Below are positions 44,164-62,756 of a stretch of 64,000 nucleotides of DNA, piece by piece; the first letter of the stretch is position 1; every line of letters starts with the position of its first letter. The notes below the pieces were generated by a model. The model was not told the origin of the DNA and did no database searches. It saw nothing but the letters and a program-made list of their open reading frames with translations. The translations under genes and the position numbers were made by a program. This DNA is from an uncultured Gammaproteobacteria bacterium (lineage in GTDB: Bacteria; Pseudomonadota; Gammaproteobacteria; Enterobacterales; Psychrobiaceae), in contig CAJXRU010000006.1 in the NCBI GenBank assembly GCA_913060565.1, positions 1 through 64,000 on the forward strand, in the 5' to 3' direction.

Positions 44164-44709
44164 ATGTCAGATCGCCTATCTAAATTATTGCAAAGCTTTG
44201 ACAGCCATATCAGCATTCCATGGCCTAAAGCCGTTTCTGCTGACGAACGCACTATTTTTGTTGTTTACAACAAAGAAGACGAATTAAAGCTCCGAGCCAG
44301 AATCGGCGAGTTTGAAGCCAGTACTACGCAAAGTGGTCATCCTTGGCTTCAGCTTGACCTAACTCATAGCTTTGAAAACTGGATGGAAGAACAAGACTAT
44401 AAAGAAACCTACTTTGAAGACCCTGAATATCTCAAAGGGCTTTATGAAGACTTTTCAGATGAACTTATCGAAAATTTAAAGTCTCAATTTATAGAAAAAC
44501 AAGATGTAAATGGTGTTGTTGCCTTACTCGGCTGCGGAGCATTATTTGGGTTTGCATCCGTATCTGGCTTAGTTGAAGAAATAGCAAAAGAGGTAAAAGG
44601 CCGATTAGTCGTTTTTTTTCCAGGCGAACACCAAAACAATAATTACAAACTTTTAGATGCCAAGGATGGGTGGGGTTACCACGCAACTGCCATCACAGCA
44701 ATGACATAA
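44164..44709 (+). CDS. brxB: BREX protein BrxB (DUF1788)
   Basis: 181 residues, near the usual BrxB length of about 200. The opening SDRLSKLLQSFDSH and the segments TIFVVYNKEDEL, WLQLDLTHSFENWM and RLVVFFPGE match the DUF1788 pattern. BrxB is a small core BREX protein of unsettled biochemistry. Begins directly after the brxA stop codon, with brxC 13 bases downstream. Confidence 0.82.
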   Translation: MSDRLSKLLQSFDSHISIPWPKAVSADERTIFVVYNKEDELKLRARIGEFEASTTQSGHPWLQLDLTHSFENWMEEQDYKETYFEDPEYLKGLYEDFSDELIENLKSQFIEKQDVNGVVALLGCGALFGFASVSGLVEEIAKEVKGRLVVFFPGEHQNNNYKLLDAKDGWGYHATAITAMT

Positions 44710-47700: not shown

Positions 47701-48202
47701 ACAGCAAATGGACTCAATTGTTGAAAGCCGAAGCTTACTCGTTGAGCCAAACCCAGTTACGCCGCTACTTCAACAAGCAGAGTCAGCTCTACGGGATGCA
47801 ATTACTGCCAAACTAGCTGAATATGAAGAAGAGTTTAATGCCTGTCATCGCGATCTTACCGACGATACTAATTGGCTGAAGCTTGATGACGTTAAAAAGC
47901 AAGCGTTATTAGCCAAACGTAGCCTTTCAACTATACCAAGTGTTGATTTATCTTCAGCTGCCGCAGTTTACGATGCATTAGAAGAAACTAGCTTTGTGCA
48001 ATGGAGTGATCGAATTTCAGCATTGCCAGGTCGTTTTGACGCTGCGCTTAAAGATGCAATTAGTGAGCTTGCTCCAAAAGTAAGGTACTGCCGCTTAAAT
48101 AAGCCAATGATTGAATCAGAAGATCAATTGCTAGATTGGCTTGCGGAAGTTGAAGCTCAAATACGTGTAGAACTTGCCAATGGTCCAGTAGTTCCGAGTT
48201 AG
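44723..48202 (+). CDS. brxC: BREX P-loop ATPase BrxC/PglY
   Basis: 1159 residues, the size of BrxC. Walker A is GFFGSGKSHLAKML (about residues 76-89), and LTLVVLDEVQQYIGD (about 269-283) is the Walker B region. Long helical and coiled segments follow, and an AAA-like ATPase plus a C-terminal helical part are evident. It is a core BREX protein required for exclusion and usually for methylation. A 9-bp inverted repeat lies directly after the stop, and pglX begins 54 bases on. Confidence 0.93.
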   Translation: MLNRDIYLNDPLTSRLANNGVAQVKDDLSKTALETLEYELRTFVCDGAYAAGMEKILDAYLQNVKNDGEQPGVWISGFFGSGKSHLAKMLRTLWTNQKLNDGSYARSLVDLPSNIAAQFDELSKLASQHQGLHAASGTLGAGAGEQVRLAFLGIIFKSACLPEQYHLARFVIWLKEEGVLEQVQAYITENAKAKEGRDPWTHELKNLHVSPIMGNALLQALPGMASDVKEVRDMLRAQYKIVDDVTNDEMVTAIMDSLAVNGELPLTLVVLDEVQQYIGDDVKKAFDVQEVVETCSGNGRLNSKLLFVATGQSSLTGTANLSRLKGRFQVPVQLEDTDVDSVIRKVILQKNESARPQIQSVIDNELGEISRHLRGSIIEHNKDDEKWMIADYPLLPVRRRFWEKVLPALDKTGTGSQLRNQLRIVHGATKSTAEFSLGYVVPADFIYDEIAINLVQSGAIGKDIYETISRLKGGDTDQKLQGRILALILLISKLPTDIEYGIAATADTLADLLLENLLEGKHELRANVPKLLTQLVDDGLVMPMQTTAGEEYRLQTIESQQWYDEYRQQENDFKSNLQRIEVFRSKEIQRYVQKQVAQSRITQGTVAESRMINLEFGNELPSDADKKLYAWAPEVLEKQFNDLARGANPDSATIFIYVPTTQRDELRKAIIKLKAAESTIDVRGAAKTDAGKEAYAAMEYRFKEADRAKKAILNDIFAQIQVKLAGGQEVEGESLAEQIQNAGVLACQRLFSKFKMADNKGWAKVFQRASTQADANALEAIEHNDEADKHPVCAEVKRFIGVMKTGREIIDTFKGAPYGWGKDTIEGALFAMLAAGVLKASDGQEKAVDAKSLDRSSVTQTKFRPENVTLSKVQIIKVRGLINALLPEGQNCNTGEEQSKLPLAIINAKQVARSAGGESPLPLAPSTSVLTNLEMYTGNDQLQQAFDAKDDIQSQFTQWQDQADLVKARTNQWHELNTAMRYCKDLAVHANLTQQMDSIVESRSLLVEPNPVTPLLQQAESALRDAITAKLAEYEEEFNACHRDLTDDTNWLKLDDVKKQALLAKRSLSTIPSVDLSSAAAVYDALEETSFVQWSDRISALPGRFDAALKDAISELAPKVRYCRLNKPMIESEDQLLDWLAEVEAQIRVELANGPVVPS

Positions 48203-48256: not shown

Positions 48257-51200
48257 ATGAGAACACCATTAGATAAAGCATTACGTGGCAAGCTAGAAAA
48301 AAACGTTGAAAAAGCCCGTGATATTGTCGAAATAGCAGTAGCAGAAGCGCTCACTCGTTTAGGTATTAGCGATGGAAGCGCACCAAGTTATTTATCTGAA
48401 GCAGAACGTAAACTAAGAAACCGTTTACGTGCCCATGGCCGCCAGTTAGGTGATGCATTAAACAAGGAATCAGGTAACCAAGAAACTGAACTCTTAATTA
48501 ACGAAATGTCATACGAGCATTGGCATCGAATGCTATTTGCTCGCTTTTTAGAGCAAAGTGACATGTTAATGTACGACCAAAACACCCACGTTACTTTAGA
48601 TGAGTGTTTTGAGTTAGCTGAAGAAGAAGTCGATATAACAGATGGTTGGGAATTAGCAGGTCAATTAGCACAGAAAATGCTACCACAAATATTTCGTGCT
48701 GATTCGCCAGTGTTTGAAGTAAAGCTTTCAATTAACCATGTTAATACTCTAGAGGAGCTAATAGCCGATTTACACCCTGACACTTACCAAGCGTCAGATT
48801 CTCTCGGTTGGTGTTATCAATATTGGCAAAATAAAAAGAAAATTGAAGTTAATGAACAAATAAAGTCAGGATTAAATGTTGGAGCGAAGGAATTAAGCCC
48901 TGTTACTCAATTGTTTACTGAACCCTATATGGTTAGCTTTTTGCTCGACAATGCTTTAGGTGCTTGGTGGGCAAAACGCCGATTAACATCAGATGACTTA
49001 CAAACAGCCACTAGTGAACAAGAGCTACGAGAACTCGCTGCTATTCCAGGTGTTCCACTAGAATATTTACGTTTTGTTCAGAAAGAAGATACATGTGCCC
49101 ACAGCGGAGAGAAGGTAAAAACTTGGGCTAACGCCGCAGGTGATTTTGACAAGTGGCCTGAAGATTTAAGTGAACTTAAAACACTCGATCCCTGCTGTGG
49201 TTCAGGTCACTTCTTAGTCGCTAAATTCCTAATGCTAGTGCCAATGCGTATGGAATTAGAAGCATTAACCGCTAAGCAAGCGATTGATAGAGTTATCGCT
49301 GAAAACATCCATGGTTTAGAACTAGATCAACGTTGTGTTGAGCTTGCTGCTTTTGCATTAGCCCTTGAAGCCTGGCGTTATCCAGATGCTGGTGGCTATC
49401 GTCAATTACCTGCGCTACAACTCGCTTGTTCTGGCATGTCAATTAATGAAGCACAAAAAGAGTGGGAAGGCTTAACTAAGGATGATGAAGAGTTACAAGG
49501 TGCTATAGAGTGGATGCAAAAAGCGTTTAAAGATGCCCCCATTTTGGGGAGCTTGAATGACCCTCATAGAACATTAAGTACTGATAAGCTGCCCTGGGTT
49601 CAGCTTCAAGATAAAATCAATAACAAACTTGAAGTTAGTAATGAAACACTACTAACTTCAATGGGGTTAGCTAAAGTTGCACAATTTTTATATGAAAAAT
49701 ATGACTGGGTCATTACAAACGTTCCTTATCTAGCTAGGGGAAAGCAAGTTAACAAACTTCGCACATATTGCGAGAAAAACTATCCTGTCTCAAATGTAGA
49801 TTTAGCAACTGTGTTTCTTGAACGTTGTCTCGAACTAAATAATAGCAATGGCACTATTAGCCTTGTTTTACCACAAAACTGGTTGTTTTTAACTAGATAT
49901 AAAGATTTTAGAGAAAAACTGCTTAAGAATAATATATGGAATATGGTAGTAAGGCTTGGAACCAAAAGCTTTCAAACACCAATGTGGGACTTCAATGTGC
50001 AGCTTATCTCATTATCAAATCATGTTGATGATGGAAAAGAAAGCTATATAAATGGCCTTGATGTGTCAGATTCACAAAAAGCTTTTGAAAAAGCTAATTC
50101 TTTGAGTAGCTCTGAACTAAAGGTAGTTAAAGTTTCAGAACAATTATCAAATCCAGATTCTATTATTACTTTTGAAGAAGCTAGTAATCTAGATTTATTA
50201 GGGAAATATGCTATTTCTATGCGAGGAATCGTATCCGGCGACACTGATAAGTGGATAAAAAAATATTGGGAAATTAAAGATGAAAAATATCGCTATTTGC
50301 AAAGCACACCAAGTCATACTGAAATTGGGCTAGGAAAGGAAAGTGTTATAGATTGGTCAAAGAAAGGAGTGGGGATGTTACGCCCTGGCACTTCAAACTT
50401 GGCTTATGGTAATAAAGGAGTTGCTTTAGGGCAAATGAATATATTACCAGCGACTAATTATGATGGTTCGTTATATGATAATAATACGGCTACAATCGTT
50501 CCTCATGACATAGATCATTTACCTGCCATATACAGTTTTAGCTCATCCCAAAAGTTTAACAAAGTTGTAAGGCAGATAGATCAAGCTCTGAAAGTAACTA
50601 ATGCGACTCTACTAAAAGTTCCATTCGATATAGATTACTGGACTTCAGTTGCAAAGAAAGACTTTCCAAATGGTCTCCCTCAGCCATACTCAAACAACCC
50701 ATCTCAATGGGTCTTCCACGGTCATCCTTGTGCATCAGTAGTTTGGGATGAAGAAATAAAAACTACTGCGGTCAGTGAATTACGCCAAGACGATACAGTT
50801 CTACAAGTCGCCGTTGCTTGTTTGTTAGGTTATCGATGGCCAGCAGAGTTTGATACTGAAATGGAACTGGCTCCTGAAGTGCGTGAAATCATCGCTAAAA
50901 ACAAAGTCTTTGATGATTTAGTGGATGATGATGGCATTGTTTGTATTCCTGCAATCCGTGGTGAAAAGCCCGCTGTTGATAGATTAGAAGCTATTTTACA
51001 TGCTGCATATGGTGATGAGTGGTCTGCTACTGTACTCAATAATCTATTAAAGTCCGTTAAGTCTCGCGACTTAAACCTATGGCTGCGTGATAAATTCTTT
51101 GAACAACATTCAAAGTTATTCCAACATCGCCCATTTATTTGGCAAATTTGGGATGGGTTATCAGATGGTTTCTCGGCATTAGTTAATTATCACACGCTAG

Positions 51201-51673
51201 ATTACAAAGGATTAGAACGTTTAATTTACACCTACCTTGATGATTGGATCAGTACTCAAATTCAACAAGAAAAAGATGGGGATGAAGGCGCTGAACTAAG
51301 ATTAACCGCTGCAAGAAACTTAAGAGAGCAACTAGAAGCGATTCTTTTAGGTGAGAAGGATCTCGATATTTTCGTACGTTGGAAGTCACTAGCCGAACAA
51401 CCTATCGGCTGGAATCCAGATTTAAATGATGGAGTGCGCTTAAACATCCGCCCATTTATGCAAGCCAAAGACGTCGGAAAAAAAGACGCTGGCATATTGC
51501 GCTCAAAACCAAACATCCATTGGAAAAAAGACCGAGGTACCGATGTTGCTTCAGCCCCATGGTTTGATCTTGGCTTGGAATACGGTGGTAAACAAGGCGA
51601 CCGAATAAATGACCATCACCTGACTTTAGCTGATAAGATTGAAGCTAGAGATAAAATAAAAGAGACTAATTAG
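48257..51673 (+). CDS. pglX: BREX adenine-specific DNA methyltransferase PglX
   Basis: 1138 residues. SAM-binding motif I is LDPCCGSGHFLVAKF (about residues 310-324). The catalytic motif IV is NVPY (ITNVPYLARGKQ, about residue 488) in place of the usual NPPY. Several GRG-like target-recognition segments follow, then a long C-terminal helical domain. PglX methylates adenine in a short non-palindromic site to mark host DNA, and in many BREX types loss of PglX abolishes defence. The recognition site cannot be predicted. One base separates it from the next gene. Confidence 0.9.
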   Translation: MRTPLDKALRGKLEKNVEKARDIVEIAVAEALTRLGISDGSAPSYLSEAERKLRNRLRAHGRQLGDALNKESGNQETELLINEMSYEHWHRMLFARFLEQSDMLMYDQNTHVTLDECFELAEEEVDITDGWELAGQLAQKMLPQIFRADSPVFEVKLSINHVNTLEELIADLHPDTYQASDSLGWCYQYWQNKKKIEVNEQIKSGLNVGAKELSPVTQLFTEPYMVSFLLDNALGAWWAKRRLTSDDLQTATSEQELRELAAIPGVPLEYLRFVQKEDTCAHSGEKVKTWANAAGDFDKWPEDLSELKTLDPCCGSGHFLVAKFLMLVPMRMELEALTAKQAIDRVIAENIHGLELDQRCVELAAFALALEAWRYPDAGGYRQLPALQLACSGMSINEAQKEWEGLTKDDEELQGAIEWMQKAFKDAPILGSLNDPHRTLSTDKLPWVQLQDKINNKLEVSNETLLTSMGLAKVAQFLYEKYDWVITNVPYLARGKQVNKLRTYCEKNYPVSNVDLATVFLERCLELNNSNGTISLVLPQNWLFLTRYKDFREKLLKNNIWNMVVRLGTKSFQTPMWDFNVQLISLSNHVDDGKESYINGLDVSDSQKAFEKANSLSSSELKVVKVSEQLSNPDSIITFEEASNLDLLGKYAISMRGIVSGDTDKWIKKYWEIKDEKYRYLQSTPSHTEIGLGKESVIDWSKKGVGMLRPGTSNLAYGNKGVALGQMNILPATNYDGSLYDNNTATIVPHDIDHLPAIYSFSSSQKFNKVVRQIDQALKVTNATLLKVPFDIDYWTSVAKKDFPNGLPQPYSNNPSQWVFHGHPCASVVWDEEIKTTAVSELRQDDTVLQVAVACLLGYRWPAEFDTEMELAPEVREIIAKNKVFDDLVDDDGIVCIPAIRGEKPAVDRLEAILHAAYGDEWSATVLNNLLKSVKSRDLNLWLRDKFFEQHSKLFQHRPFIWQIWDGLSDGFSALVNYHTLDYKGLERLIYTYLDDWISTQIQQEKDGDEGAELRLTAARNLREQLEAILLGEKDLDIFVRWKSLAEQPIGWNPDLNDGVRLNIRPFMQAKDVGKKDAGILRSKPNIHWKKDRGTDVASAPWFDLGLEYGGKQGDRINDHHLTLADKIEARDKIKETN

Positions 51674-51674
51674 C

Positions 51675-52787
51675 ATGAGTACTGTTAATCCAATAAACCA
51701 ATTAAGTATTGAGGGGTTTAAATCAATCCGTTCGATGAAGAATCTTCAATTAAATAGACTTAATGTTTTAATTGGCGCGAATGGTGTTGGTAAAAGTAAC
51801 TTTGTTTCTTACTTTAAATTACTAGGTGAAATGTTAGATAGTCGCTTGCAGGTTTGGAGTCAAAAACAGGGTAAGGCTGAACGAGTGTTAAGCTTTGGTG
51901 TTAAAGAGACATCCGAATTTTCATCATTTGTTACTTTTGGCATTAATGGTTATAAATTTATTCTTGAACCAACGATTGATGGCGGATTTACTTTCAGCCT
52001 AGAATCTTTATATTTTGATGGCCCTTACTATGGAGAGAAATGGATTGCCTTAGGCTCTGGCCATAGTGAAGCCAAATTAAAAGAAAAATTTGAGAAAAGT
52101 AAAAAATGGACTGAAGCCGATTATTGCTATAGCTCAATATCTAGCTGGCGTGTATATCATTTTCACGATACGAGTGATACGGCAGGTGTAAAGCGGACCT
52201 GTGAAGTTCATGATAATGAGTATTTAAGAACTGATGCATCTAATTTAGCTGCTTATTTGTATCATTTAAAATCTGAATCGCCAGATGTATATAGTCAAAT
52301 ACGCAAGACAGTACGATTAGCTGTTCCATTTTTCGATGACTTTGTTTTAAAACCAACCAAACTAGATAGTGAAGAAGAACAAATTCGCTTACTTTGGACA
52401 CAGTTAGATAGTGATTATGCATTGTGGCCAAGCCAACTGTCTGATGGCTCTATACGCTTTATTTGTTTAGTAACGGCACTAATGCAACCATCAGCGCCAT
52501 CTACGATAATTATTGATGAGCCAGAACTCGGTTTACACCCTTATGCAATAACATTGTTAGGCGCTTTATTAAGATCTGCCTCTCAACGTATGCAGGTTAT
52601 TATTTCGACACAATCGGTTCCGCTTCTTAATGAGTTTGAAATAGATGATTTAATTGTAGTGGAACGAGAAAAAGGTGGTTCGATTTTTAAACGTTTAGAT
52701 GAAACCAAATTTGAAAGTTGGTTAGAAGATTATTCAGTTGGAGAGCTTTGGGAGAAGAACATTTTAGGTGGGAGACCATCAAAATGA
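51675..52787 (+). CDS. RecF/AAA_21-type ATPase inserted in the BREX operon
   Basis: 370 residues. Walker A is LIGANGVGKSNFVSYFK (about residues 32-48); ABC-type signature LSDGSIRFICL (about 255); Walker B IIIDEPELGLHP (about 276-287); then QVIISTQS. This is the small RecF/SMC-like ATPase found in defence pairs such as PARIS (AriA), OLD and retron effectors. It overlaps the DUF4276 gene by 4 bases. Placed between pglX and pglZ, where core BREX operons normally have nothing. Confidence 0.85.
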   Translation: MSTVNPINQLSIEGFKSIRSMKNLQLNRLNVLIGANGVGKSNFVSYFKLLGEMLDSRLQVWSQKQGKAERVLSFGVKETSEFSSFVTFGINGYKFILEPTIDGGFTFSLESLYFDGPYYGEKWIALGSGHSEAKLKEKFEKSKKWTEADYCYSSISSWRVYHFHDTSDTAGVKRTCEVHDNEYLRTDASNLAAYLYHLKSESPDVYSQIRKTVRLAVPFFDDFVLKPTKLDSEEEQIRLLWTQLDSDYALWPSQLSDGSIRFICLVTALMQPSAPSTIIIDEPELGLHPYAITLLGALLRSASQRMQVIISTQSVPLLNEFEIDDLIVVEREKGGSIFKRLDETKFESWLEDYSVGELWEKNILGGRPSK

Positions 52788-53461
52788 TTAGAGTTCATGT
52801 GATATGTGAAGGACAAAGTGAAGAAGCTTTTGTAAATGAAATATTATGTCCAAGTTTTTATGCTCAAGGCATTCAACTATTACCTGCATTAATAGGTAGA
52901 CCAGGACACAAAGGTGGAAACTTTAAGTTTGAACGATTATTGCCCGAAATTGAAAAGAGATTATTAGGTGATGCTAATTGCTATTGTACTACCTTTTTTG
53001 ATTTCTATGGTCTTCCACCATCATTTCCTGGTAAAGAGGATGTAACTGTTAATGATACAATTGAACAGAAGTCTAACAAGGTAAATCAAGCCACAACAAC
53101 TAAGCTTACAGAGAGACTTGGTGAAAATGCTATGCGTCGTTTTATTCCTTTTATACAAATGTATGAGTTTGAAGGCTTGTTATTTAGTGATCCTGAAAAA
53201 ATGGCGTTAGGGATGGATAAACCCGACTTAATAGAACATTTTCAACAAATATCCAATGATTTTACAACGCCTGAACACATTAATAACAGCCCACAAACAG
53301 CCCCCAGTAAACGCATAATTAATGTCATTAGAGGGTATGAAAAACCATTAATGGGCGTATTAGCTGCTTTAGAGGTTGGTTTGGACTCAATGCGTGCGAA
53401 CTGCCAATTATTTGATCAATGGCTTTCTAATATTGAAGCTATTTCAGGGGATAGTAATTAA
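52784..53461 (+). CDS. DUF4276 (TOPRIM-like) partner of the ATPase
   Basis: 225 residues from ATG 52784 (ATGA overlap with the ATPase stop). An opening HVICEGQSEEAFVNE and the acidic FFDFYGLPPSFPG are DUF4276 hallmarks, compatible with a TOPRIM-like metal-binding fold (E near residue 8, D near 71). YEFEGLLFSDP (about 128) is also typical. By analogy with PARIS AriB and OLD it may be a nuclease released or triggered by the ATPase. Nuclease activity is inferred. Confidence 0.78.
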   Translation: MIRVHVICEGQSEEAFVNEILCPSFYAQGIQLLPALIGRPGHKGGNFKFERLLPEIEKRLLGDANCYCTTFFDFYGLPPSFPGKEDVTVNDTIEQKSNKVNQATTTKLTERLGENAMRRFIPFIQMYEFEGLLFSDPEKMALGMDKPDLIEHFQQISNDFTTPEHINNSPQTAPSKRIINVIRGYEKPLMGVLAALEVGLDSMRANCQLFDQWLSNIEAISGDSN

Positions 53462-55513
53462 ATGCAATTAATTGATTATCTAGCTGAACAACTTCGAAAT
53501 TCAGCTAATTATAATTCAGCCGTGCAGATCGCACCTGCTGCTATTTTGTGGACTGATATTGAACGTCAGTGGCAGTCTGCCATGCCTTCAATTAAGCAGT
53601 ACTTACCTGAATTAGTTGAGTTAGGTGAATATAAACCTGATGAAAGAATAGGTCCCGCTATTTGGATTAAGTGTGCCATTGCTGGTGTATTAGAAGAACT
53701 TGAGTTTCCAGAGGGTAAAACGCCTATAATTTATTTGCCAGGTGTTGGACGTAAAGATTTGCGAGCAATAGAACAATGTCCTGATGAGTTAAGGCCACTG
53801 GCAGAGTTACAATATCGTGGGTGTTGGTGGGCTTATAACTCAGCAGGTAGAGATTGGTCTGTAGGTTCATTTTTAACGAACCCTCGTGTTGGTTTAGAGC
53901 TTGATGTAGCAAAAGATAAAAAGACCCAAGCTGCGATTTTGAAAATTTTACCTGACTTATTAGAAACACCTGATGAGTCATTAAGAGGTAAAAAGTTAGA
54001 AGCTCAAGATTTCATTAATATTGTGATGGATGACCCTGCAAAAGATATTCTAGGTTGGTTAAATACCCCTGAAGATAAGCAAGCTTTATGGCAAGACAGT
54101 AAGTGGCCTATTTTCAAACAAATGTGTTTGGATAAATTTGGCTTTGATCCTGAAAAGGCCGATGTCGCGTCGGTGTTATTTAGCTTATGCGAATCCGAGG
54201 GACAATGGCTGGCTGTTTGGCAACGCTTTGAAGATACTGCGCATAACTTACCTTTATTAGTTGAAAAACTAAAGTCAGTTCAACCTGATGGATTAGCTTT
54301 TAATGCCAGTCATTTTTTATATGAAAACTTAAAAGATGAAAATGAGATTGCCGATAAACTAACTGGTTTTTCTGGGCAAGATGTAACAGTTATTAAAAAG
54401 CAATTATTAACCATTTTTGATCAACAATCGGATAGAAAATCATGGTTATGGTATGGCCTTGAGCTATCTCCTTGGCTAACGATTCTTGAGCATTTAGCTT
54501 TAGTGGTTGAACATACTGATATCGCTTTTACAGGCCCTTCAGTAGAGATAATGGCTAATACTTATAAAGAGCGCTTTTGGCAAGCCGATGCTGCTGCTAT
54601 TCATGCTATGGCGGTTGCCAAAGATATAAACCAACAACAGGTTGTGGCTGATATTTTAGCGGTAATTTATACCCCTTGGTTAGAACAAGTAACATTAAAC
54701 TTTCAAAACTTGGTTAGAGCAGAAGGTTATCCTGGTAAGTCTGGGAGATCTGATGAGGTAAATGAGTCAACCGCACAATATGATACAGGCAGTCAGGTTA
54801 TTTTCTTTGTTGATGGTTTACGTTTTGATACGGCAAAAACATTACAACAAAAGTTAGATAAGCTTTCAGTTAGTACGGCTTTAAAAACTAATTGGTGTGC
54901 ATTACCTTCATTAACCGCTACGGCAAAAGCTGCGGTAACTCCTGTTGCAGACTTACTTTCTGGTGCGCAAGAAAATGATAACTTTACGCCAATGCTTGCT
55001 GCCTCTGGTTCAGAGTTTAGCTCTTACCATTTGAAAAAGTCATTAGATGCTAAAGGTTGGCAATATTTAGATGGCTTAGAAACAGGTGAACCTAAAGGTA
55101 ATGCCTGGGTACAAACAGGTGATTTAGATAACATGGGGCATAAGCAACAAATGAAAATGCCATTGAATATTGATGCTGTATTGGAAGATGTTGTTGCTCG
55201 TGTAGAAGGGCTGTTAAAAGCTGGCTGGAAGAATATCCGAATAGTAACCGATCATGGTTGGTTATGGGTGCCAAACAAGTTAGCTGAAGCTAGTATTTCA
55301 AAAAACATGGTGAAGAAACGCTTAGCTCGTTGTGCAATATTAAAAGATAATGTTGATACTTCTGAGTTAAAAGTACCGTGGCATTGGAATGAAAATGTAT
55401 CTGTAGCAATGGCTCCTGGTATATCGGGTTATGTTGCTGGTGATTACTATAACCATGGTGGTTTGAGCTTGCAGGAATGCTTAACGCCTGTGATAAATAT
55501 TAAAAGCACTTAA
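53462..55513 (+). CDS. pglZ: BREX alkaline-phosphatase-fold protein PglZ
   Basis: 683 residues. The PglZ domain is C-terminal: IFFVDGLRFDTAK (about residues 446-458), the metal-binding VTDHGWLWVP (about 594-603) and HGGLSLQECLTPVI (about 663-676). It corresponds to what is annotated as BREX-1 PglZ type B, I think. A core BREX component interacting with PglX. It begins immediately after the DUF4276 stop codon, so the inserted pair has not broken the transcript. Confidence 0.88.
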   Translation: MQLIDYLAEQLRNSANYNSAVQIAPAAILWTDIERQWQSAMPSIKQYLPELVELGEYKPDERIGPAIWIKCAIAGVLEELEFPEGKTPIIYLPGVGRKDLRAIEQCPDELRPLAELQYRGCWWAYNSAGRDWSVGSFLTNPRVGLELDVAKDKKTQAAILKILPDLLETPDESLRGKKLEAQDFINIVMDDPAKDILGWLNTPEDKQALWQDSKWPIFKQMCLDKFGFDPEKADVASVLFSLCESEGQWLAVWQRFEDTAHNLPLLVEKLKSVQPDGLAFNASHFLYENLKDENEIADKLTGFSGQDVTVIKKQLLTIFDQQSDRKSWLWYGLELSPWLTILEHLALVVEHTDIAFTGPSVEIMANTYKERFWQADAAAIHAMAVAKDINQQQVVADILAVIYTPWLEQVTLNFQNLVRAEGYPGKSGRSDEVNESTAQYDTGSQVIFFVDGLRFDTAKTLQQKLDKLSVSTALKTNWCALPSLTATAKAAVTPVADLLSGAQENDNFTPMLAASGSEFSSYHLKKSLDAKGWQYLDGLETGEPKGNAWVQTGDLDNMGHKQQMKMPLNIDAVLEDVVARVEGLLKAGWKNIRIVTDHGWLWVPNKLAEASISKNMVKKRLARCAILKDNVDTSELKVPWHWNENVSVAMAPGISGYVAGDYYNHGGLSLQECLTPVINIKST

Positions 55514-55544
55514 TGCTACTTGTAAATGGAATGGAGTCAGCAAT

Positions 55545-56231
55545 ATGGCGTTAAGACCTGTGTTTATTGCTATTGATGAATACCCTTATGTAAAAGAAGA
55601 AATGATAGATTTTGAATGGCATAAGGGCATGGCTGTTTCGCAAAAACAAAAATCAATTGGTTCTTTGCATAAAGCAGCAAAGGAACAATTTGCACATTTG
55701 GACATACTAGAAATATCAACCAAAAGTGAACAGGCATTAGGTGTGCAATTAAGTGCGTTTAATTTGCGGGTAGAATTGAAAAGTGGTCAAAAGCTTCCTT
55801 TAGAAAATATCTTTCATGCGTCAAAAGTATTTGAGAACGGCGGTCCATATAAGGAACTGTTATCAATACCTACTCATGAGGTGAAAAGGGATGAACGCTT
55901 GTTGGAAAGTGGTAAGCTCATTGGTTTTTCTAGCAAAGGAAAAGTTTGGCCTCTGACACCTCAAACCATTTTTTATGACTGGCTTTACCTTAATACTTTA
56001 TCTTTACAAGAAGACTTGATTGCTGAAGTAAGACACTATAATGCATTTACCGATATAGAGTTTAACCCTAAAAAAAGTATTAATTGCCAAGCGAGATCGG
56101 CTGCTCTATTTGTATCTTTAACTCGAAAGGAGCTATTGAAGCAGTTTTTATCTAGCTCAGATGAATTTATACGTCAATTCAGCCTTAAATCAACCACAGA
56201 TAAACCAGAACAAAAGGACTTGTTTAGTTAA
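55545..56231 (+). CDS. NADAR-type antitoxin of a DarT1 module
   Basis: 228 residues. The family segments ALRPVFIAIDEYPYVKEE (N-term), FHASKVFENGGPYKELL (about 90-106), TIFYDWLYLNTL (about 141-152) and FTDIEFNPKKSINCQARS (about 168-185) match the DarT1-associated NADAR antitoxins as I remember them. NADAR hydrolases remove ADP-ribose from guanine in DNA. One base separates it from the DarT-like toxin gene and 31 bases from pglZ, so it is embedded in the BREX transcript. Confidence 0.78.
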   Translation: MALRPVFIAIDEYPYVKEEMIDFEWHKGMAVSQKQKSIGSLHKAAKEQFAHLDILEISTKSEQALGVQLSAFNLRVELKSGQKLPLENIFHASKVFENGGPYKELLSIPTHEVKRDERLLESGKLIGFSSKGKVWPLTPQTIFYDWLYLNTLSLQEDLIAEVRHYNAFTDIEFNPKKSINCQARSAALFVSLTRKELLKQFLSSSDEFIRQFSLKSTTDKPEQKDLFS

Positions 56232-56232
56232 T

Positions 56233-57144
56233 ATGCAAAATGAACTAGAAGATATTTTAAGAATATTAAACTCAGTATTAATAGATAGAGACACTGTTTT
56301 AGAGTTTGTTCGTAATGAATTGTCATTTGCCAATAAAAGCTCATTAGTTGTTCGTAATTTTGCGAAATCGAGCGGAATTGTCATTAAAGAAGACCTGCCT
56401 ATATTAGACTTAGATAGCCCTAATATTTTATTTTCCACTTTGCTTTCATCAAGAGGCTCCTTTCAATCCACAATTGAATTACGATTGAAAATTATTGATG
56501 AAATTATGAAAAGTCATGAAATAGGAAATTATTCGAATGTTGATGACAAAGGTGTAATTAAAGCTATCTGTAAGGAACGTGGAATAAAGGAATTGATACA
56601 TTTTACCAAGATAGAAAACGTTATAAGTATTTTGGATATAGGGTTAAATAGCAAAGACTATAATGGTGAAATTGTTAAAAGACATAACATCAATGACAGA
56701 GATAGATTTGACTATCGGACTCATATGATTTCTCTCTCAATATCATATCCAAATGATAAAATGTTTTACAAAAATCGTATCAATGACCGCAGTCAGGAAT
56801 GGGCAGTATTAAGGCTATCACCAAGCATACTTTGGGAACTTGATTGTTTATTTTGTCCAGCAAATGCAGCGAGTTCCTCAATTTCCTCAGCAAATGATAA
56901 TGCATTATCTGGTAGCCGAGCATTAAAAAAAATGTTTAATAAACAAACTGGAAATTTAAGAGTTTGTGATCCAACAGATTCTCAAGCTGAGATCCTTGTA
57001 AACAGCCATATACCTACCAAGTATATTGAGTCAGTTGTCCTTGAGAAAGAAACTGAAACCATATTAGATACAAGCTTTAACATAAACGTTGATTCTGGTT
57101 ACTTTCATAACAGGGAATATGCGTTAAAGTACTACTTTTCATGA
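56233..57144 (+). CDS. darT: DarT-family DNA ADP-ribosyltransferase toxin
   Basis: 303 residues from ATG 56233; a frame open further upstream lies inside the antitoxin gene. The N-terminal 100 residues are helical and unrecognised. The DarT domain covers about residues 105-303: LIHFTKIENVISILDIGL (H123, T125) and the catalytic-glutamate region SQAEILVNSHIPTKYI (E253). DarT uses NAD+ to ADP-ribosylate DNA bases (guanine in DarT1) and stops phage replication. Paired with the NADAR gene just upstream. Confidence 0.8.
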   Translation: MQNELEDILRILNSVLIDRDTVLEFVRNELSFANKSSLVVRNFAKSSGIVIKEDLPILDLDSPNILFSTLLSSRGSFQSTIELRLKIIDEIMKSHEIGNYSNVDDKGVIKAICKERGIKELIHFTKIENVISILDIGLNSKDYNGEIVKRHNINDRDRFDYRTHMISLSISYPNDKMFYKNRINDRSQEWAVLRLSPSILWELDCLFCPANAASSSISSANDNALSGSRALKKMFNKQTGNLRVCDPTDSQAEILVNSHIPTKYIESVVLEKETETILDTSFNINVDSGYFHNREYALKYYFS

Positions 57145-57174
57145 TCTTCAAATTTTATTAAAAGGAATTTATTT

Positions 57175-58392
57175 ATGTCAATCTTCAATCTCTTTTCTAA
57201 GAAGCTAACATCGGAATTAAGTAATGAGAAAGAAGGAGAGAAATATTTTCGTCAAGCTCTTCAGTGTTCTCAGTATGGAAATCAAGATGATGCTATCAAA
57301 TTTTTTACTAAATCCTTAGAAATTAGCCCAAATCATTCTGCGGTTTACGTTAATAGAGCTGGCTGTTATATGGTCCAAGAACGCTACTTGCAAGCCTATG
57401 ATGATTACTTGCATGCTATCGATATGGAGGATAGGGGGTACTCAATTGATGCTGAATCTAGTAAACCAGCGGCACTACAGAATATGCAAAGAATACAACC
57501 TTTCATCGCTTTTGCTCAAGAAAATGGAGAAGGCGTTAAAAACCAGCTTTCAACAGATGGCTTAGGTCATTTTACTAAGCGCTGGGCCGAAGTTTTATTT
57601 GATCAATTTTTAGGTAGCGATGTTAATACGGCAAAGCAATTTATATTAGAAGAAATAAAAGAGCTTGAGGAAATGGGCGGAGAGCACCAAGAATATGCTT
57701 TAAATTGTGGTGTTAATCATTCTGATTTTTCTAATGTAGGGGGGCAATTTGACACCCATAAAGCTTTTATGATGTTTAAAAGTGTGCTTTGTTGTTTTAG
57801 TCGAGATCCTCATAAAATGTTTGAGATAAGAACAACAATACTTAATAAATTGATGTCGTTAAGCAGCTCTAATGCACTAGGTAGTAGTAATCAGAAGGTT
57901 GATTATGTTGGTGGAATGCGGTTGGTTGAAGCTGAAGTCGATATAATGTTTATCGTTAAAAATGGTGATGTCATGTACATCAATACGGATGCCGATCATC
58001 TCTATGAATTGGATAAAGATGGTGATATGAAGTTAGATGGCAGAATTGTTAACTTTTTCTTTAAAGATTCAAATGAAGTCGTTGAAATATTTGTGGCATT
58101 TGATGATCAAGATTCGTATTCGATGTTTACAATGAATATGGGACGAGATGAAAGATTAAACTATGTTGCTCAAGCTATTTTCCAATTTATGGGGCAAAAT
58201 AATATTACCAATGTATTTTCATCGACTGCTCAGTATTCAAGCCAATACCACTATACATTTAAACTGTACAAGAAAAATGAAAAGCACTTTATGGTTAATA
58301 ACAGCCAATCTCATGCTTATTTAATAGGTGATAATTTATATAAAAGTAATAATGCTGATGAGATTAAATCAGAGTTTTGGGAAATGGCATAA
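57175..58392 (+). CDS. TPR-containing protein of unknown function
   Basis: 405 residues. Residues about 19-88 hold two tetratricopeptide repeats (EKYFRQALQCSQYGNQDDAI, then NHSAVYVNRAGCYMVQERY). The remaining 315 residues match nothing I recognise; no transmembrane segment or catalytic motif is obvious, and Asp/Asn-rich beta-like stretches are seen (KNGDVMYINTDADHLYELD). It starts 30 bases after darT on the same strand with a good AAGGAA site, so it is likely co-expressed with the defence operon. May be an accessory or scaffold protein. Confidence 0.7.
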   Translation: MSIFNLFSKKLTSELSNEKEGEKYFRQALQCSQYGNQDDAIKFFTKSLEISPNHSAVYVNRAGCYMVQERYLQAYDDYLHAIDMEDRGYSIDAESSKPAALQNMQRIQPFIAFAQENGEGVKNQLSTDGLGHFTKRWAEVLFDQFLGSDVNTAKQFILEEIKELEEMGGEHQEYALNCGVNHSDFSNVGGQFDTHKAFMMFKSVLCCFSRDPHKMFEIRTTILNKLMSLSSSNALGSSNQKVDYVGGMRLVEAEVDIMFIVKNGDVMYINTDADHLYELDKDGDMKLDGRIVNFFFKDSNEVVEIFVAFDDQDSYSMFTMNMGRDERLNYVAQAIFQFMGQNNITNVFSSTAQYSSQYHYTFKLYKKNEKHFMVNNSQSHAYLIGDNLYKSNNADEIKSEFWEMA

Positions 58393-58506
58393 GGTACCTC
58401 GATATACAAGGCTAGGTTACTACAACCACTGGGGACTAAGTTTAGTAATGTTTACCCCTTAATTTTTTAACATAACTAAATAATTTTTAAATAAAAGGAA
58501 TTAACT

Positions 58507-58761
58507 ATGACAGAAACTTTGCCTAACAATAATGAATTTAATGCCGCAGAAGCGGCATTAAGAAAAATAGGCTCTAATTTGTGGTTTGGTGGCTTAACTG
58601 ATGAATGGCAAGATTTTGTAGTTTCTAATACTGTTGAAACATTTGACACTTATGAGCTATCTATAGATCAAGCAGCGCAGAAGATGCTCGAAGTTTTTCA
58701 ACAATTAGTAGCAGCAGATCCTAGTTTGCTAAATAAAAGCCCGTGGGAAACCAAAGTTTAG
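58507..58761 (+). CDS. 84-residue protein of unknown function
   Basis: Small acidic helical protein with the segment GSNLWFGGLTDEWQDFVVSN (about 22-41). No family recognised. AAGGAA precedes its ATG by 7-8 bases. It is 114 bases after the TPR gene on the same strand; the gap shows no clear terminator. Convergent with the helicase-like genes, whose nearest stop is 21 bases away. Confidence 0.6.
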   Translation: MTETLPNNNEFNAAEAALRKIGSNLWFGGLTDEWQDFVVSNTVETFDTYELSIDQAAQKMLEVFQQLVAADPSLLNKSPWETKV

Positions 58762-58782
58762 ATCGAAAAATACCTTGGTTTT

Positions 58783-60642
58783 CTAAAATATCGATTTATC
58801 TCTAATTCTGGTTGAGATGATGTTGTTAGCATCATCTTGTTTTTCAGAAGTTAATTCTTCGGAGTATTCTCCACGCAAATAAAGCAAAATTATCGTGTTG
58901 TCATTCTCCACACTCAACAATGATGATATCTCCGCTAGATCATCTTCATCCATAGATCTTTTGAACGCATCTATTTGGCGTGAGAGGTTATAAACACTGA
59001 ATATACTCGCCATAACTCGCTTGTCTTCAGTTGATTCACCGCCACCTGGATTTACAATTTTATTAAACTCAACAGGTTGCTTTTGTTTTATTAATGATGT
59101 GAATTCAACAGCTCTATTTTTTGCACAACTTGGAGTATGATCATCAAAAGTTACACCGTTAACCCACTGTGCCTTAATCCAATTTTTATGTTCGCCTTTT
59201 AAAGCTCTACCTTGTTTTCTGTGTGGCCCATCATCTTTAAGTAGTTCAGCTCTAATTAGTTTTATTGCCTTAAGTAGTGTCGGGTTACTCGTATATGGTC
59301 TGTAATCAAACTCAGGATGAGCTAACTTTCCGGGTACTGCTACAAAACTATCTGTGTAGTATGTTTGGCTATCGTCTTTTTTTCTTGAAACCTTACATTC
59401 AGCTTGAGGAGCTATGTTGGTTCCTCGGTCAAAGCCTCTTACCTCATACTTTGTACAGATATCTTCAAATAACTTATGCAGCCCATCAAAATCGTTTGAA
59501 CCAGAACTATCTTCTAGGTGATTTAATAAGTCACTATATGCCTTTATGGCGTCAAGGTTAGTGTAGTGCTTAGCGGTGATATTACTATGGTAACCACACG
59601 CTCTACCTATGTTCGCTTGAACTATTGCAGCAATGTTGGCTATGGTGCTGTCCCATGTATTAATTAGTGTATTTTTCATTTCATGACCAAAGTTAATACC
59701 AGCTCTAAATCCGGCAACGGTTATGGCAATTAATTTGTCATCAAACATCACAGCGGTTTGATATTCTCGTTTGAAGTCATCGATGCTTGTTAGTTCAGCA
59801 TCTTCAACCCCTACCAATTTTTGACCTATTATCATTATTTGATCTTCAGAGATGCCATTACTTAAAAGTATTTCTTTAGCAACTTTCGCCTGACTACTTG
59901 GGACTCTTATTAATGACCATCCTGCTGAGTTGTGTTCTTTGAATTGACGTATGAATCGCTTTCTCAAAAGGGAGTCTTCACAAAAGTTTCGTTGATCCTC
60001 TGCTAGCTTAACTAATTGGTTATTACGATGCATCTCTCTAATGCCATGATATTCATCACTGGTTTTGTGAAAAACTAGGCTGGTTTTAAAGTTATGGCGT
60101 AATATCGAGTCAGAGCCTGCGGAGTACAAAGCACTGAAAGGAGTTGCTGAGATGAAAGCCACTTTACATTGAGTATTTTCTTTTTCTAAATACTCAAAAA
60201 TTTTAGAATACCTTACAGCTTCAGAACCAGCACCATAATGACACTCATCAATGATGATGAGTTTAGGTTGCTGGCTCTTAAATTGGCTAGCTAGAGCAGA
60301 CTCATAGTTAGTAAAGTTACTGACCACTACGTTATTGCATGGAGCTAAGTCTTGTTTAGCTTGTTCAAGTAACGATAGGTCTGCCATTGTAACCAAGTAC
60401 AATGTATCTTTTAGCTGCTTACGATCGCATATATCGGCATCAGTAAGTTTTTGCCTCTGCATGCCAGATAAAGCTAGGGCAATCCCTGATTTGCCTGATT
60501 GCATTTCAGCCGCAATGACCACAGCTCTATTATTATCAAAATCTTTAAAAGCTTTTTGTGCAGCATCACGTTGATGCTGAAAAGTATTTTCTGTTAACAA
60601 CTTTTCAATAGCATTGCGGTGCAAGTTTGCAGAATTAGTCAT
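58783..60642 (-). CDS. SF2-helicase-like ATPase, second of a tandem paralogous pair
   Basis: 619 residues from the ATG at 60640-60642 (a GTG at 60678 is the longer option; the ATG start aligns with the paralogue). Motif I AAEMQSGKSGIALAL (about 44-58), motif II IIIDECHYG, motif III FISATPF, and motif VI-like QANIGRACGYH. It has a unique C-terminal domain with YRPYTSNPTL and WIKAQWVNG. The frame aligns along its length with the upstream gene (60650-62629), roughly half identical by eye. The two genes are 7 bases apart. No family name recognised. It probably unwinds or translocates on nucleic acid. Confidence 0.78.
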   Translation of the reverse strand: MTNSANLHRNAIEKLLTENTFQHQRDAAQKAFKDFDNNRAVVIAAEMQSGKSGIALALSGMQRQKLTDADICDRKQLKDTLYLVTMADLSLLEQAKQDLAPCNNVVVSNFTNYESALASQFKSQQPKLIIIDECHYGAGSEAVRYSKIFEYLEKENTQCKVAFISATPFSALYSAGSDSILRHNFKTSLVFHKTSDEYHGIREMHRNNQLVKLAEDQRNFCEDSLLRKRFIRQFKEHNSAGWSLIRVPSSQAKVAKEILLSNGISEDQIMIIGQKLVGVEDAELTSIDDFKREYQTAVMFDDKLIAITVAGFRAGINFGHEMKNTLINTWDSTIANIAAIVQANIGRACGYHSNITAKHYTNLDAIKAYSDLLNHLEDSSGSNDFDGLHKLFEDICTKYEVRGFDRGTNIAPQAECKVSRKKDDSQTYYTDSFVAVPGKLAHPEFDYRPYTSNPTLLKAIKLIRAELLKDDGPHRKQGRALKGEHKNWIKAQWVNGVTFDDHTPSCAKNRAVEFTSLIKQKQPVEFNKIVNPGGGESTEDKRVMASIFSVYNLSRQIDAFKRSMDEDDLAEISSLLSVENDNTIILLYLRGEYSEELTSEKQDDANNIISTRIRDKSIF

Positions 60643-60649
60643 ATAACAA

Positions 60650-62629
60650 TTATTTCTCTGAAAATTGTGATTCGTCACTTAAGCTGCCAGATTTTTCAGG
60701 TAACTTATTGTGTTCTTTTTTTGCAATACTTCTTTCAATATCGTATTCACCACGCTTGTAAAGTACAAACATTGTATCGTCGTGAGGAATATTAAAGTGA
60801 TCACACATGTCCCATACATCATGAGGTGTCATAATCGTTTTAATCACTTTACGGCGAGAAATATTATAAATACTGAATACGGTCGCAGTTATGAGTTTAT
60901 TTTCTGATAGCTCACCTGAGCCGGGAGCTACCACTCGATTAAACTCGACAAACTCATCGTTATTCAACATATCTGTGAGCATAATTGTTCTATCTTTTTG
61001 CGGGCCATCAACACCTGCTTTTTCAGGGTTATCGTAACTATCGCCATTTACCCATTGCGCTTTGATCCAATTTTTCTTTTTACCGCGCATTGCTCGATTG
61101 CCTTTAACAGAAGGGGCACCTTTTTTGGTGAACTCTTCCCTTAAAATTCTGATAGCGGAAAGCATATGCTTATCTTTGGTAAATATATTGAAGTTAAAAT
61201 CAGCTTCTAAAAGGTTAGCAGGTACGGCTACATAACTATCTGTTGAGTAGGTTTCAACGTCACCTATTGGTCTGCGCCTTTTGTATTTAATCGTTAAACC
61301 TACGTCTAATCCGTTAACATGATACTCCTGGCATATGTCTTCAAAAAACTCTTTTAAACCGTCAAAGTCAGACGCGGCATGATCAGAGCATGTTCTTTCG
61401 AGATAATCTAATATTGCACCGTATGCTTCAGCCGCATTACCGTTGGTATAGTGCATGGATGTATTATTTCCGTGATAGCCACAAGCTCTACCAACGTTAG
61501 CTTGCACAACCGCAGCGACACTCGCTACTGTACTGTCCCAAGTTGAAATTAGGTTGTTCTTCATCATAGCGCCGAAGTTGATACCAGCCCGACAACCAGC
61601 AACTGTGATAGCTACTAATTTATCACCAAACAATTGAGCATCTTCAAAGTCTTTTTTGAATCTGTCTATTGTGGATAGTTCATCTTCAGGTACTCCTGAA
61701 AGAGAGTTTCCTAATATAAAAATATTATGCTCTTCTATGCCTTGTGATATGAAGAACTGCTTGGCGTCCATGGCATTACCAGCGGGTACTCTAACTAATG
61801 ACCACCCCATGCCTTCGTGATGTTTAAATTGGTTCATGAAGTTTAAGCGTTGCTCTGAATCAATTAGAAAGTTACGGCAATCATCATCTAAGTTTATTAA
61901 TCGGCCATTGTTAAGCATTTCCCTAACACCATAATATTCATTACTGGTTTTATGGAATACCAAGCGAGTACTAAAGTCTCGACGTAAAATGGAGTCTTTT
62001 AAAGCATTACTAGCTGCTTGCTTAGATTCTTGAAGCAATTGTTCGTTATGTTCTTCTTCTGCTTCTGAGCTTATTTCTAATGCTTCTTCATATTCAGTTT
62101 CTGCGCCATACAAAGCACCAAATGGAGTAGCTGATATAAATACAACTTTGCAAGTGTCATTTTCTTGCTCTAAATAGTCAAAAATACTGCTATATCTAAT
62201 ACCAGTGACATTTGAACCATAGTGACACTCATCAATGATAATTAGCTTAGGGGGATTGCCTTTAAAGTCAGCTTCTAACGCTTTTTCAAAGTTTACAAAA
62301 TTACTAACAACAACATTTTTTGCAAGTTTAAGATCATCTTCTGCCTGATCACGCAAAGCAGTGTCAGGCATTGTAACCAGGTAGAGAGTATCTTTTAGTT
62401 GTTTACGATCGCAGATATCAATATCTGATAAATTAAGTCTTTGAAAGCAACATAGGGCTAGAGCAATACCAGATTTACCTGCTTGCATTTCTGCGGCTGT
62501 AACAACGGCCCTGACATCTTTATCAAATGCAGAATAAGTTTTTTGAGCAGCATCTATTTGATGCTGGTGAAGAGCATCGCCTGAAAAAATATCTTTAATG
62601 CGTTGGCGGTGGGTTTCGGGTTGGTTCAT
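60650..62629 (-). CDS. SF2-helicase-like ATPase, first of a tandem paralogous pair
   Basis: 659 residues. N-terminal HQHQIDAAQKTY, motif I AAEMQAGKSGIALAL (about 45-59), motif II LIIIDECHYGS (about 129-139), motif III VFISATPFGALYG (about 163-175), motif V-like ITVAGCRAGINFG and motif VI-like QANVGRACGYH. An acidic insert of about 30 residues (about 176-205) distinguishes it from its paralogue. Both keep a shared C-terminal domain. No nuclease motif is seen. It is preceded by an inverted-repeat promoter and co-transcribed with the second copy. Confidence 0.8.
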   Translation of the reverse strand: MNQPETHRQRIKDIFSGDALHQHQIDAAQKTYSAFDKDVRAVVTAAEMQAGKSGIALALCCFQRLNLSDIDICDRKQLKDTLYLVTMPDTALRDQAEDDLKLAKNVVVSNFVNFEKALEADFKGNPPKLIIIDECHYGSNVTGIRYSSIFDYLEQENDTCKVVFISATPFGALYGAETEYEEALEISSEAEEEHNEQLLQESKQAASNALKDSILRRDFSTRLVFHKTSNEYYGVREMLNNGRLINLDDDCRNFLIDSEQRLNFMNQFKHHEGMGWSLVRVPAGNAMDAKQFFISQGIEEHNIFILGNSLSGVPEDELSTIDRFKKDFEDAQLFGDKLVAITVAGCRAGINFGAMMKNNLISTWDSTVASVAAVVQANVGRACGYHGNNTSMHYTNGNAAEAYGAILDYLERTCSDHAASDFDGLKEFFEDICQEYHVNGLDVGLTIKYKRRRPIGDVETYSTDSYVAVPANLLEADFNFNIFTKDKHMLSAIRILREEFTKKGAPSVKGNRAMRGKKKNWIKAQWVNGDSYDNPEKAGVDGPQKDRTIMLTDMLNNDEFVEFNRVVAPGSGELSENKLITATVFSIYNISRRKVIKTIMTPHDVWDMCDHFNIPHDDTMFVLYKRGEYDIERSIAKKEHNKLPEKSGSLSDESQFSEK

Positions 62630-62642
62630 TTGACAGTTCCAT

Positions 62643-62671
62643 TATCGTATTGTGTACTCTATTATACGATA
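62643..62671 (-). promoter_or_regulatory. Inverted repeat over the promoter of the helicase pair
   Basis: TATCGTAT (62643-62650) and ATACGATA (62664-62671) are perfect 8-bp arms 13 bases apart. On the minus strand the upstream arm overlaps a TATAAT (62661-62666), and the ATG lies 14 bases beyond the lower arm. The arrangement suits a dimeric repressor or activator binding the helicase promoter. Confidence 0.6.
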
Positions 62672-62699
62672 TGAAACTTTATAATTAAATTTTAAGCAT

Positions 62700-62735
62700 G
62701 TATTTGGCTAACTTATTTATAAGTTAGCCAAATAC
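62700..62735. repeat. Perfect 16-bp hairpin between zinc-ribbon and helicase genes
   Basis: Arms 62700-62715 and 62720-62735 are exact complements (GTATTTGGCTAACTTA on the left) with a TTTA loop. It follows the zinc-ribbon stop on the minus strand and lies about 70 bp before the helicase start. No T-run downstream, so it may be a terminator variant or a structural/protein site. Confidence 0.7.
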
Positions 62736-62756
62736 AAAGAAGCTAGGTTATCTAAT

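Follow-up and report, generated by a model that had tools for sequence, protein, structure and literature searches.

Two adjacent genes, here named helA and helB, occupy positions 58783-62629 of a 64,000-nt stretch of DNA from an uncultured gammaproteobacterium of the Psychrobiaceae (contig CAJXRU010000006.1, positions 1 to 64,000; this whole stretch is called the window below). They encode paralogous helicase-like ATPases of superfamily 2 (SF2) and are convergent with a bacteriophage exclusion (BREX) operon of the composition brxR-brxA-brxB-brxC-pglX-(HEC-01)-pglZ, facing its 3' end. The final gene of a BREX locus, brxL (PMC10164562), is absent here, and the helicase pair probably takes its place. 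The pair, the operon and the genes between them are as follows.

60650-62629, minus strand: HelA, 659 aa, ATG start; first gene of the pair, SF2 helicase-like ATPase
58783-60642, minus strand: HelB, 619 aa, ATG start; second gene of the pair, paralogue of HelA
42492-43388, plus strand: WYL-domain protein in the BrxR position, a BREX regulator by position and family (PMC9122601)
43381-44163, plus strand: BrxA (PADLOC PDLC02450, 328 bits)
44164-44709, plus strand: BrxB (PADLOC PDLC02469, 247 bits; also Pfam BrxB)
44723-48202, plus strand: BrxC (PDLC02489, 1457 bits, a full-strength match)
48257-51673, plus strand: PglX (BrxX) adenine methyltransferase (PDLC02528, 1595 bits; Eco57I, N6_Mtase)
51675-52787, plus strand: HEC-01A ATPase, accessory, not core (PADLOC PDLC04175, 489 bits)
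52718-53461, plus strand: HEC-01B (DUF4276), accessory; start codon uncertain
53462-55513, plus strand: PglZ, last core gene of the operon (PADLOC PDLC02566, 835 bits)
55545-58392, plus strand: cassette between pglZ and helB, not core, consisting of the three genes below
55545-56231, plus strand: DarT1-associated NADAR
about 56161-57144, plus strand: DarT-like protein; start uncertain
57175-58392, plus strand: TPR protein

The presence of BrxC and PglZ at one locus, with BrxA, BrxB and PglX in the operon, places it among BREX systems (type 1 and derivatives), and PF13337 (BrxL) was not found in the window's own genome. The defence-island setting proposed for the pair in the sequence-only reading of this DNA is borne out. 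That reading had also described two intact paralogous SF2-type ATPases of the above lengths, about half identical and separated by seven bases, and it was right in this: BLASTP aligns HelA and HelB with 311/643 identities (48%) and 64% positives, and 7 bases lie between the HelA stop codon and the HelB ATG. The features of SF2, that is, Walker A, DExH, SAT, motif VI and a tandem RecA core, are present, and Pfam ResIII is recognized above the cut-off in the N-terminal part of the two proteins (residues 20-169 and 21-168). A stretch of about 33 aa following motif III is found in HelA and not in HelB.

The motifs are well kept in the family. Motif I AEMQ[AS]GKS, SATPF and QANxGRxCGYH are retained in 21/21 HelA and 19/19 HelB proteins examined, DECH in 40/40 (39 of them having IIDECH, 20/21 HelA and 19/19 HelB, and one HelA having LIDECH), and the stretch NWxKAxWxNG is constant across all 24 aligned HelA and HelB rows. 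Degeneration of one of the paralogues was rejected, as the motifs are intact in both HelA and HelB. In the comparison of the window with Colwellia hornerae, nonsynonymous divergence (dN) is 0.05 for HelA and 0.11 for HelB, and synonymous divergence (dS) is 2.1 and 3.0, respectively. As dS is near saturation here, and saturated in other comparisons with the window, these values point to strong constraint and give no exact ratio; judged by sequence divergence, both genes are under strong constraint.

In NCBIfam, both proteins match the repair helicase RadD best, though far below its cut-off (E 3.6e-5 and 1.9e-6). No PADLOC model matched HelA or HelB at E 0.1 (0 families), and a search with 25 family members at E 1 yielded scattered weak matches to six families, the best being ZacC (5.2e-5, 6/25). 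In an alignment-based AlphaFold2 model of HelA (mean predicted local distance difference test score, pLDDT, 79.7; predicted template modelling score, pTM, 0.62), the predicted two-RecA core spans residues ~4-446, and a C-terminal domain, residues ~447-659. The model matches SF2 cores with Z of about 16-18 across 290-329 residues; the values for the core are Z 18.4, root-mean-square deviation (rmsd) 3.7 and 326 aligned residues for FANCM, Z 18.4, rmsd 3.9 and 319 for RIG-I, and Z 18.0, rmsd 4.1 and 299 for RadD, with 10-16% identity to these three proteins. The likeness to RadD/RIG-I/FANCM-like helicases lies in the two-RecA ATPase core and is limited to it: motif VI of HelA and HelB is GRxCGYH, and their C-terminal domain has no match. 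Modelled separately (235 residues, mean pLDDT 82.8), this domain had no significant match in Pfam, and Foldseek gave none in PDB or BFVD either (best E 1.3 and 0.2, respectively); there was one VIA match at Z 2.0 among 342 chains. The earlier description of a shared C-terminal domain that is not recognized by comparison thus stands. The domain common to HelA and HelB is real, and the absence of matches does not prove a new fold.

A scan of genome_contigs identified 13 named relatives with HelA, from Alteromonas, Shewanella, Vibrio, Buttiauxella, Escherichia sp. ESNIH1, an Enterobacteriaceae isolate, Colwellia, Oleiphilus and Salinibius. In 12 of these 13, helA is followed by helB (among them locus L005, with HelB split in two frames), and the gap between the genes is from -4 to +44 bases in the 11 named loci measured; the exception is locus L014, where HelA is truncated and no HelB is seen in the 1.3 kb that remain before the contig ends. 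All 8 loci of an even sample of the order, 394 genomes in size (the order sample), show the helA-helB order as well. As the two-gene order recurs across relatives, the pairing is not due to chance.

In a tree of 40 HelA and HelB proteins and one outgroup, a single branch separates HelA from HelB, with support of 100 in the Shimodaira-Hasegawa-like approximate likelihood ratio test (SH-aLRT). This tree, as well as the BrxC tree described below, was built by a quick method with SH-aLRT support alone, and it omits HelA of L014 (truncated), HelB of L005 (split), HelB of G369 contig 2 (cut at the edge of the stretch taken) and duplicate locus copies. The outgroup has a very long branch joining inside HelB beside G771 and G085, a placement flagged as often false; as this join is doubtful, the root is left open, and the tree is read as parting HelA from HelB by one branch, not as showing a HelB clade. 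A single old duplication with both copies kept would be the simplest reading of these sequences.

At the Aeromonas caviae KAM479 locus (L082, 17992-25721), helB is interrupted by approximately 5.9 kb that include IS66-family and other DDE transposase genes; pglZ and pglX are present beside the interrupted gene.

The pair could have been a member of a known phage or plasmid helicase family, and the check on this gave no match to the pair in 50,697 phage records, while in 72,556 plasmid records the only matches were Aeromonas caviae KAM479 (a record of 4.9 Mb that bears the label plasmid) and a distantly related protein of a Vibrio plasmid. At least 11 loci of viral_contigs have short core matches with 25-43% identity, 5,426 Escherichia coli genomes yielded no DNA-level match to the pair, and among 398 genomes sampled evenly across the phylum there were, apart from the window's own genome, seven with matches to the helicase core alone (E 2e-8 or weaker). 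A phage or plasmid helicase family was rejected on the basis of these searches. The distant Vibrio protein, the plasmid helicase BFG51104.1 of Vibrio sp. MAO6 (L081, 5869-7779), is related through motif VI (A3 profile, 99.7 bits, positions 82-374; 25% identity). It is encoded by a single-copy gene and, unlike HelA and HelB, has not kept three of the four motif strings, and the 13-kb stretch around it gave no match to any BREX protein of the window.

The sequence-only reading had seen in the pair a self-contained system with no methylase or nuclease partner. Neither part of this is supported: the adjoining operon encodes the PglX methyltransferase and PglZ, the latter being a nuclease in type I BREX (PMC12205998), and the pair is nearly always found together with BrxC and PglZ from a single BREX lineage. 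In the order sample, the helicase profile matches seven genomes, and the same seven match the BrxC model PDLC02489 with more than 1300 bits; ten others match it weakly (110-175 bits). Apart from those seven, all 387 genomes of the sample, the ten weak matchers included, lack both the pair and a match to this model at full strength (7/7 vs 0/387, exact p = 3.6e-15). All eight loci of this sample are convergent, with the distance from the pair to BrxC of about 8-13 kb. Moreover, BrxL (PF13337) is found in 0/7 pair genomes vs 10/10 other BrxC-positive genomes of the sample (exact p = 5e-5; both p values ignore kinship and are descriptive).

Among the 13 named genomes with HelA, BrxC exceeds 1300 bits in 11, and a PglZ similar to that of the window lies on the opposite strand beyond HelB in 11/13 loci. 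In five of these 11 loci the stop codons of pglZ and helB range from 8 bases overlapping to 174 bases apart, and in the remaining six, helB and pglZ are separated by at least one gene. The order-sample and named genomes may share species, and the two sets of counts must therefore not be added.

In the BrxC tree (midpoint-rooted), 17/17 pair-linked BrxCs fall on one side of a branch with SH-aLRT of 100, and nine BrxCs without the pair, on the other. The tree omits G601 (split), G419, G449, the second G591 copy (distant), the second G664 copy and L038 (duplicates), and it is also without G333 and G369 contig 1. For several genomes (G109, G770, G036) the positions in the HelA and BrxC trees disagree, which indicates that parts have been exchanged while the linkage was kept; that it persisted nonetheless speaks for functional dependence. 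The simplest history compatible with these trees would be that the pair replaced BrxL once (or that the pair-bearing form arose once) and that relatives then exchanged modules without giving up the combination.

Outside the order, PDLC02489 matches 12 further genomes in a sample of the class (369 genomes), ten with more than 1000 bits and two weakly. The pair is present in 0/12 of them, and BrxL, in 10/12; the helicase profile that is empty on these 12 genomes gives matches in the order and phylum samples. BrxL is on the same contig and strand as BrxC in seven of the eight strong class matchers having it. Hence, outside the order the members of PDLC02489 mostly come with BrxL, and the BrxC model is wider than the pair. 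Two genomes have neither BrxL nor the pair: in G489, BrxC and a BrxB fragment alone matched in 30 kb, and in G645, the contig ends about 2 kb downstream of BrxC.

The zinc ribbon and the repressor, regarded in the sequence-only reading as sole partners of the pair, are specific to the window as far as the flanks compared reach: its ZnR, XRE, TPR, 84-aa, DarT and NADAR proteins have no match in the other loci (tblastn, E 1e-3, flanks of 0.4-10 kb upstream of HelA, a comparison in which remote helix-turn-helix relatives could be missed). A stand-alone system of the pair with zinc ribbon and XRE was rejected, neither having a counterpart at the other loci compared. The slot between helB and pglZ (55514-58782 in the window) holds toxin-antitoxin or defence genes that differ by genome; this variation is observed in the window and in L006, L007 (where it is beyond helB), L008, L010, L012, L062, L066, L068 and L070. 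The genes beyond HelB are as follows.

Window: DarT1-NADAR and a TPR protein
L012 and G369: zeta toxin
L006: Sel1/SEC-C protein
L007 (no PglZ) and G109: PsyrTA; L005: a part of PsyrT
L008: TmtA with a NERD-type helicase
G036: PDC-M16
G085: MqsA-like antitoxin

The pair is constant while these cassettes vary, and as its content differs among loci, the pglZ-helB cassette is not considered core. Variation is also seen between pglX and pglZ, where either HEC-01A/B (51675-53461 in the window) or a GmrSD-family enzyme (L004, L006, L009, L012, L061, L062) is located.

Upstream of helA, positions 62643-62671 form an inverted repeat with 8-bp arms and a 13-bp spacer (TATCGTAT...ATACGATA). It was considered as a possible operator shared with brxR, but with up to 3 mismatches allowed, its version with 7-bp arms has a single occurrence in the window, compared with a chance expectation of 3.9, and no such repeat can be seen upstream of helA in 12 other stretches. 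A hairpin with an 18-bp stem lies at 62699-62736, between the zinc-ribbon gene and helA.

Beyond the pair, positions 63348-66081 of the window's own contig (L094, 1349-4082) contain a full 409-aa tyrosine integrase gene adjoining a gene of an AFG1-like ATPase. No tRNA gene was found in this stretch, and the island may have integrated beside the AFG1-like gene. In the last ~50 bases of the same contig, the final open reading frame ends in the peptide SYTHLRAHETRHDL, which we take to be typical of sequencing-adapter read-through at contig ends.

We propose, with a probability of about 70%, that HelA and HelB form a core component of a type 1-derived BREX variant, where they stand in for BrxL. 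This proposal is built on intact ATPase motifs in both paralogues, conserved pairing, near-obligate linkage to one BREX lineage, and BrxL not having been found in the seven order-sample and 13 named genomes. Moreover, BREX systems without BrxL are reported to carry BrxH helicases, which belong to SF2 (PMC11842806; PMC12839542), and by analogy HelA and HelB would be the motor of the pair-linked lineage. The complex of BrxB, BrxC, PglX and PglZ would recognize unmethylated sites and methylate those of the host; on foreign DNA it would recruit HelA and HelB, probably as a heteromer, and these, acting as an ATP-driven DNA translocase or unwinding motor, would turn recognition, or nicking by PglZ, into a block of phage replication. 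For BrxL, a model has been proposed where PglZ nicking could lead to its recruitment (PMC12205998). The heteromer, already proposed in the sequence-only reading, is plausible: two intact divergent copies suggest it, perhaps with the motors working on different strands or sites. In this proposal, the pair would be needed for defence, would have DNA as its substrate, and would act at the BrxL step.

Several observations weigh against this proposal. The pair is on the strand opposite to the BREX operon and outside of it. BrxL is found in 0/13 named HelA genomes, for which completeness is not given. Outside the order, PDLC02489 BrxC occurs without the pair. The replacement is apparently one evolutionary event, so that the mutual exclusion of the pair and BrxL does not amount to many independent observations. 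In Aeromonas caviae (L082), the interrupted HelB adjoins pglZ and pglX. The draft genome of Vibrio mediterranei has an intact helA-helB pair beside PsyrTA (L007, 4997-8896) and no match to PDLC02489 BrxC or PDLC02566 PglZ; this pair is either an orphan or the result of a recent loss of BREX. The genome with the HelA remnant (L014) likewise has no match to these BrxC and PglZ models. As BrxL is dispensable for defence in the Salmonella BREX (PMC11341690), an empty BrxL slot need not be filled. Finally, the role of HelAB is predicted from sequence.

Some of these points would also suit an independent two-gene defence or repair module residing in a hotspot beside this BREX lineage. The strand of the pair, its intact copy without this BREX in V. 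mediterranei, the disagreement of the HelA and BrxC trees, which shows exchange, and the nature of the stretch beyond HelB as a hotspot (DarT1-NADAR, zeta toxin, PsyrTA, TmtA, PDC-M16, MqsA-like antitoxin) agree with it. Still, we find it unlikely, as the cassettes in this hotspot vary while the pair is constant, BrxC is present at 8/8 order-sample loci and in 11/13 named genomes, and 387/394 genomes of the order sample are without both the pair and full-strength BrxC. Besides, the second BREX-less named locus, L014, has a truncated HelA with HelB not found in 1.3 kb, and BrxL is found in none of the pair-bearing genomes searched.

It is less likely still that HelAB modulates or protects, limiting the toxicity of BREX or repairing PglZ nicks in host DNA, much as BrxL has been suggested to act as a regulator in Salmonella. 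Methylation does not require BrxL, and the need for it in restriction varies (PMC13326643; PMC11341690). In the Salmonella BREX, deletion of brxL keeps or even raises defence against several phages, which fits a modulating role, whereas BrxL is essential for defence in the E. coli and Acinetobacter systems, which does not (PMC11341690). RadD, as the best NCBIfam match (far under the cut-off) and one of the fold matches (Z 17-18), might suggest repair, but this similarity is limited to the generic ATPase core.

Membership of the pair in the known BrxHI/BrxHII family, which would make the locus BREX type 5 or 6, is very improbable and was rejected on sequence models: the kind of enzyme (SF2) and the logic of replacement are the same (PMC12839542), yet the BrxHI and BrxHII PADLOC models match neither HelA/HelB (E 0.1) nor the 25 family members (E 1) while picking up other helicases (PsyrT), and the PADLOC matches listed for proteins of the BREX operon (E 1e-5; 25 of 32 for PglX) include no BrxD, BrxE or BrxF.

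We return to HelAB as the substitute for BrxL. A more specific version of it, which we offer tentatively and consider somewhat doubtful, is that HelA and HelB form a dual-motor DNA translocase, a heteromer whose C-terminal domain is new, and that this translocase took over from BrxL on a single occasion in a gammaproteobacterial BREX lineage, yielding a further subtype with a duplicated SF2 motor and not an MCM-like AAA+ ring. The way in which BREX blocks phages and the contribution of BrxL to it are unsettled (PMC11341690; PMC13326643), and the exchange of BrxL for an unrelated duplicated helicase represents a natural swap experiment. If HelAB were required for restriction and not for methylation, the BrxL step would be a motor step open to different engines. 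The pair may also serve as a marker for BREX loci that otherwise resemble type 1 with brxL missing, and it offers a domain without a known fold match.

As for novelty, the suggestion that the pair belongs to an undescribed system holds in part: no PADLOC model covers it, and the HelAB variant of BREX was not found described in the literature searched, but the pair is linked to BREX and probably does not stand alone. In the main text of one BREX survey (PMC12839542; supplements lay outside the search), 'paralog', 'two helicases' and 'convergent' do not occur, and opposite-strand tandem paralogues are not described in this part of it.

Compared with type 1 BREX (brxA-brxB-brxC-pglX-pglZ-brxL), the pair-linked loci share five of the six core genes and their order, as well as the WYL regulator upstream and accessory genes between pglX and pglZ. 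The difference is at the end of the locus, where type 1 has brxL, and the window lineage has convergent helA-helB, with BrxL not found; by the strict definition of type 1, with BrxL present, the window genome, 7/7 order-sample and 13/13 named genomes are outside it, all being without a PF13337 match, and the pair-linked BrxCs form a branch of their own. BrxL, which is AAA+ and MCM-like with an inactive Lon domain, likewise lies at the end of the BREX locus and is a putative DNA motor (PMC10164562), but its class of fold differs from that of HelA, predicted to be an SF2 protein with two RecA domains.

By sequence models, the pair is not the BrxHII helicase that marks BREX type 5. BREX type 6 has BrxHI and BrxD. 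BrxE belongs to type 6 as well (PMC12839542), and none of BrxE, BrxD and BrxHI is among the matches listed for the window. BrxHI is found in BREX type 2, and BrxHII, in type 3 and part of type 5, with BrxL absent (PMC12839542). These types resemble the window lineage in having SF2 helicase genes and no BrxL, but their helicase is single, while here two tandem paralogues constitute a separate convergent operon, do not match the BrxHI and BrxHII models, and share a C-terminal domain that has no match. BREX itself is known; what seems new is a lineage of it in which a tandem helicase pair has probably taken over from BrxL.

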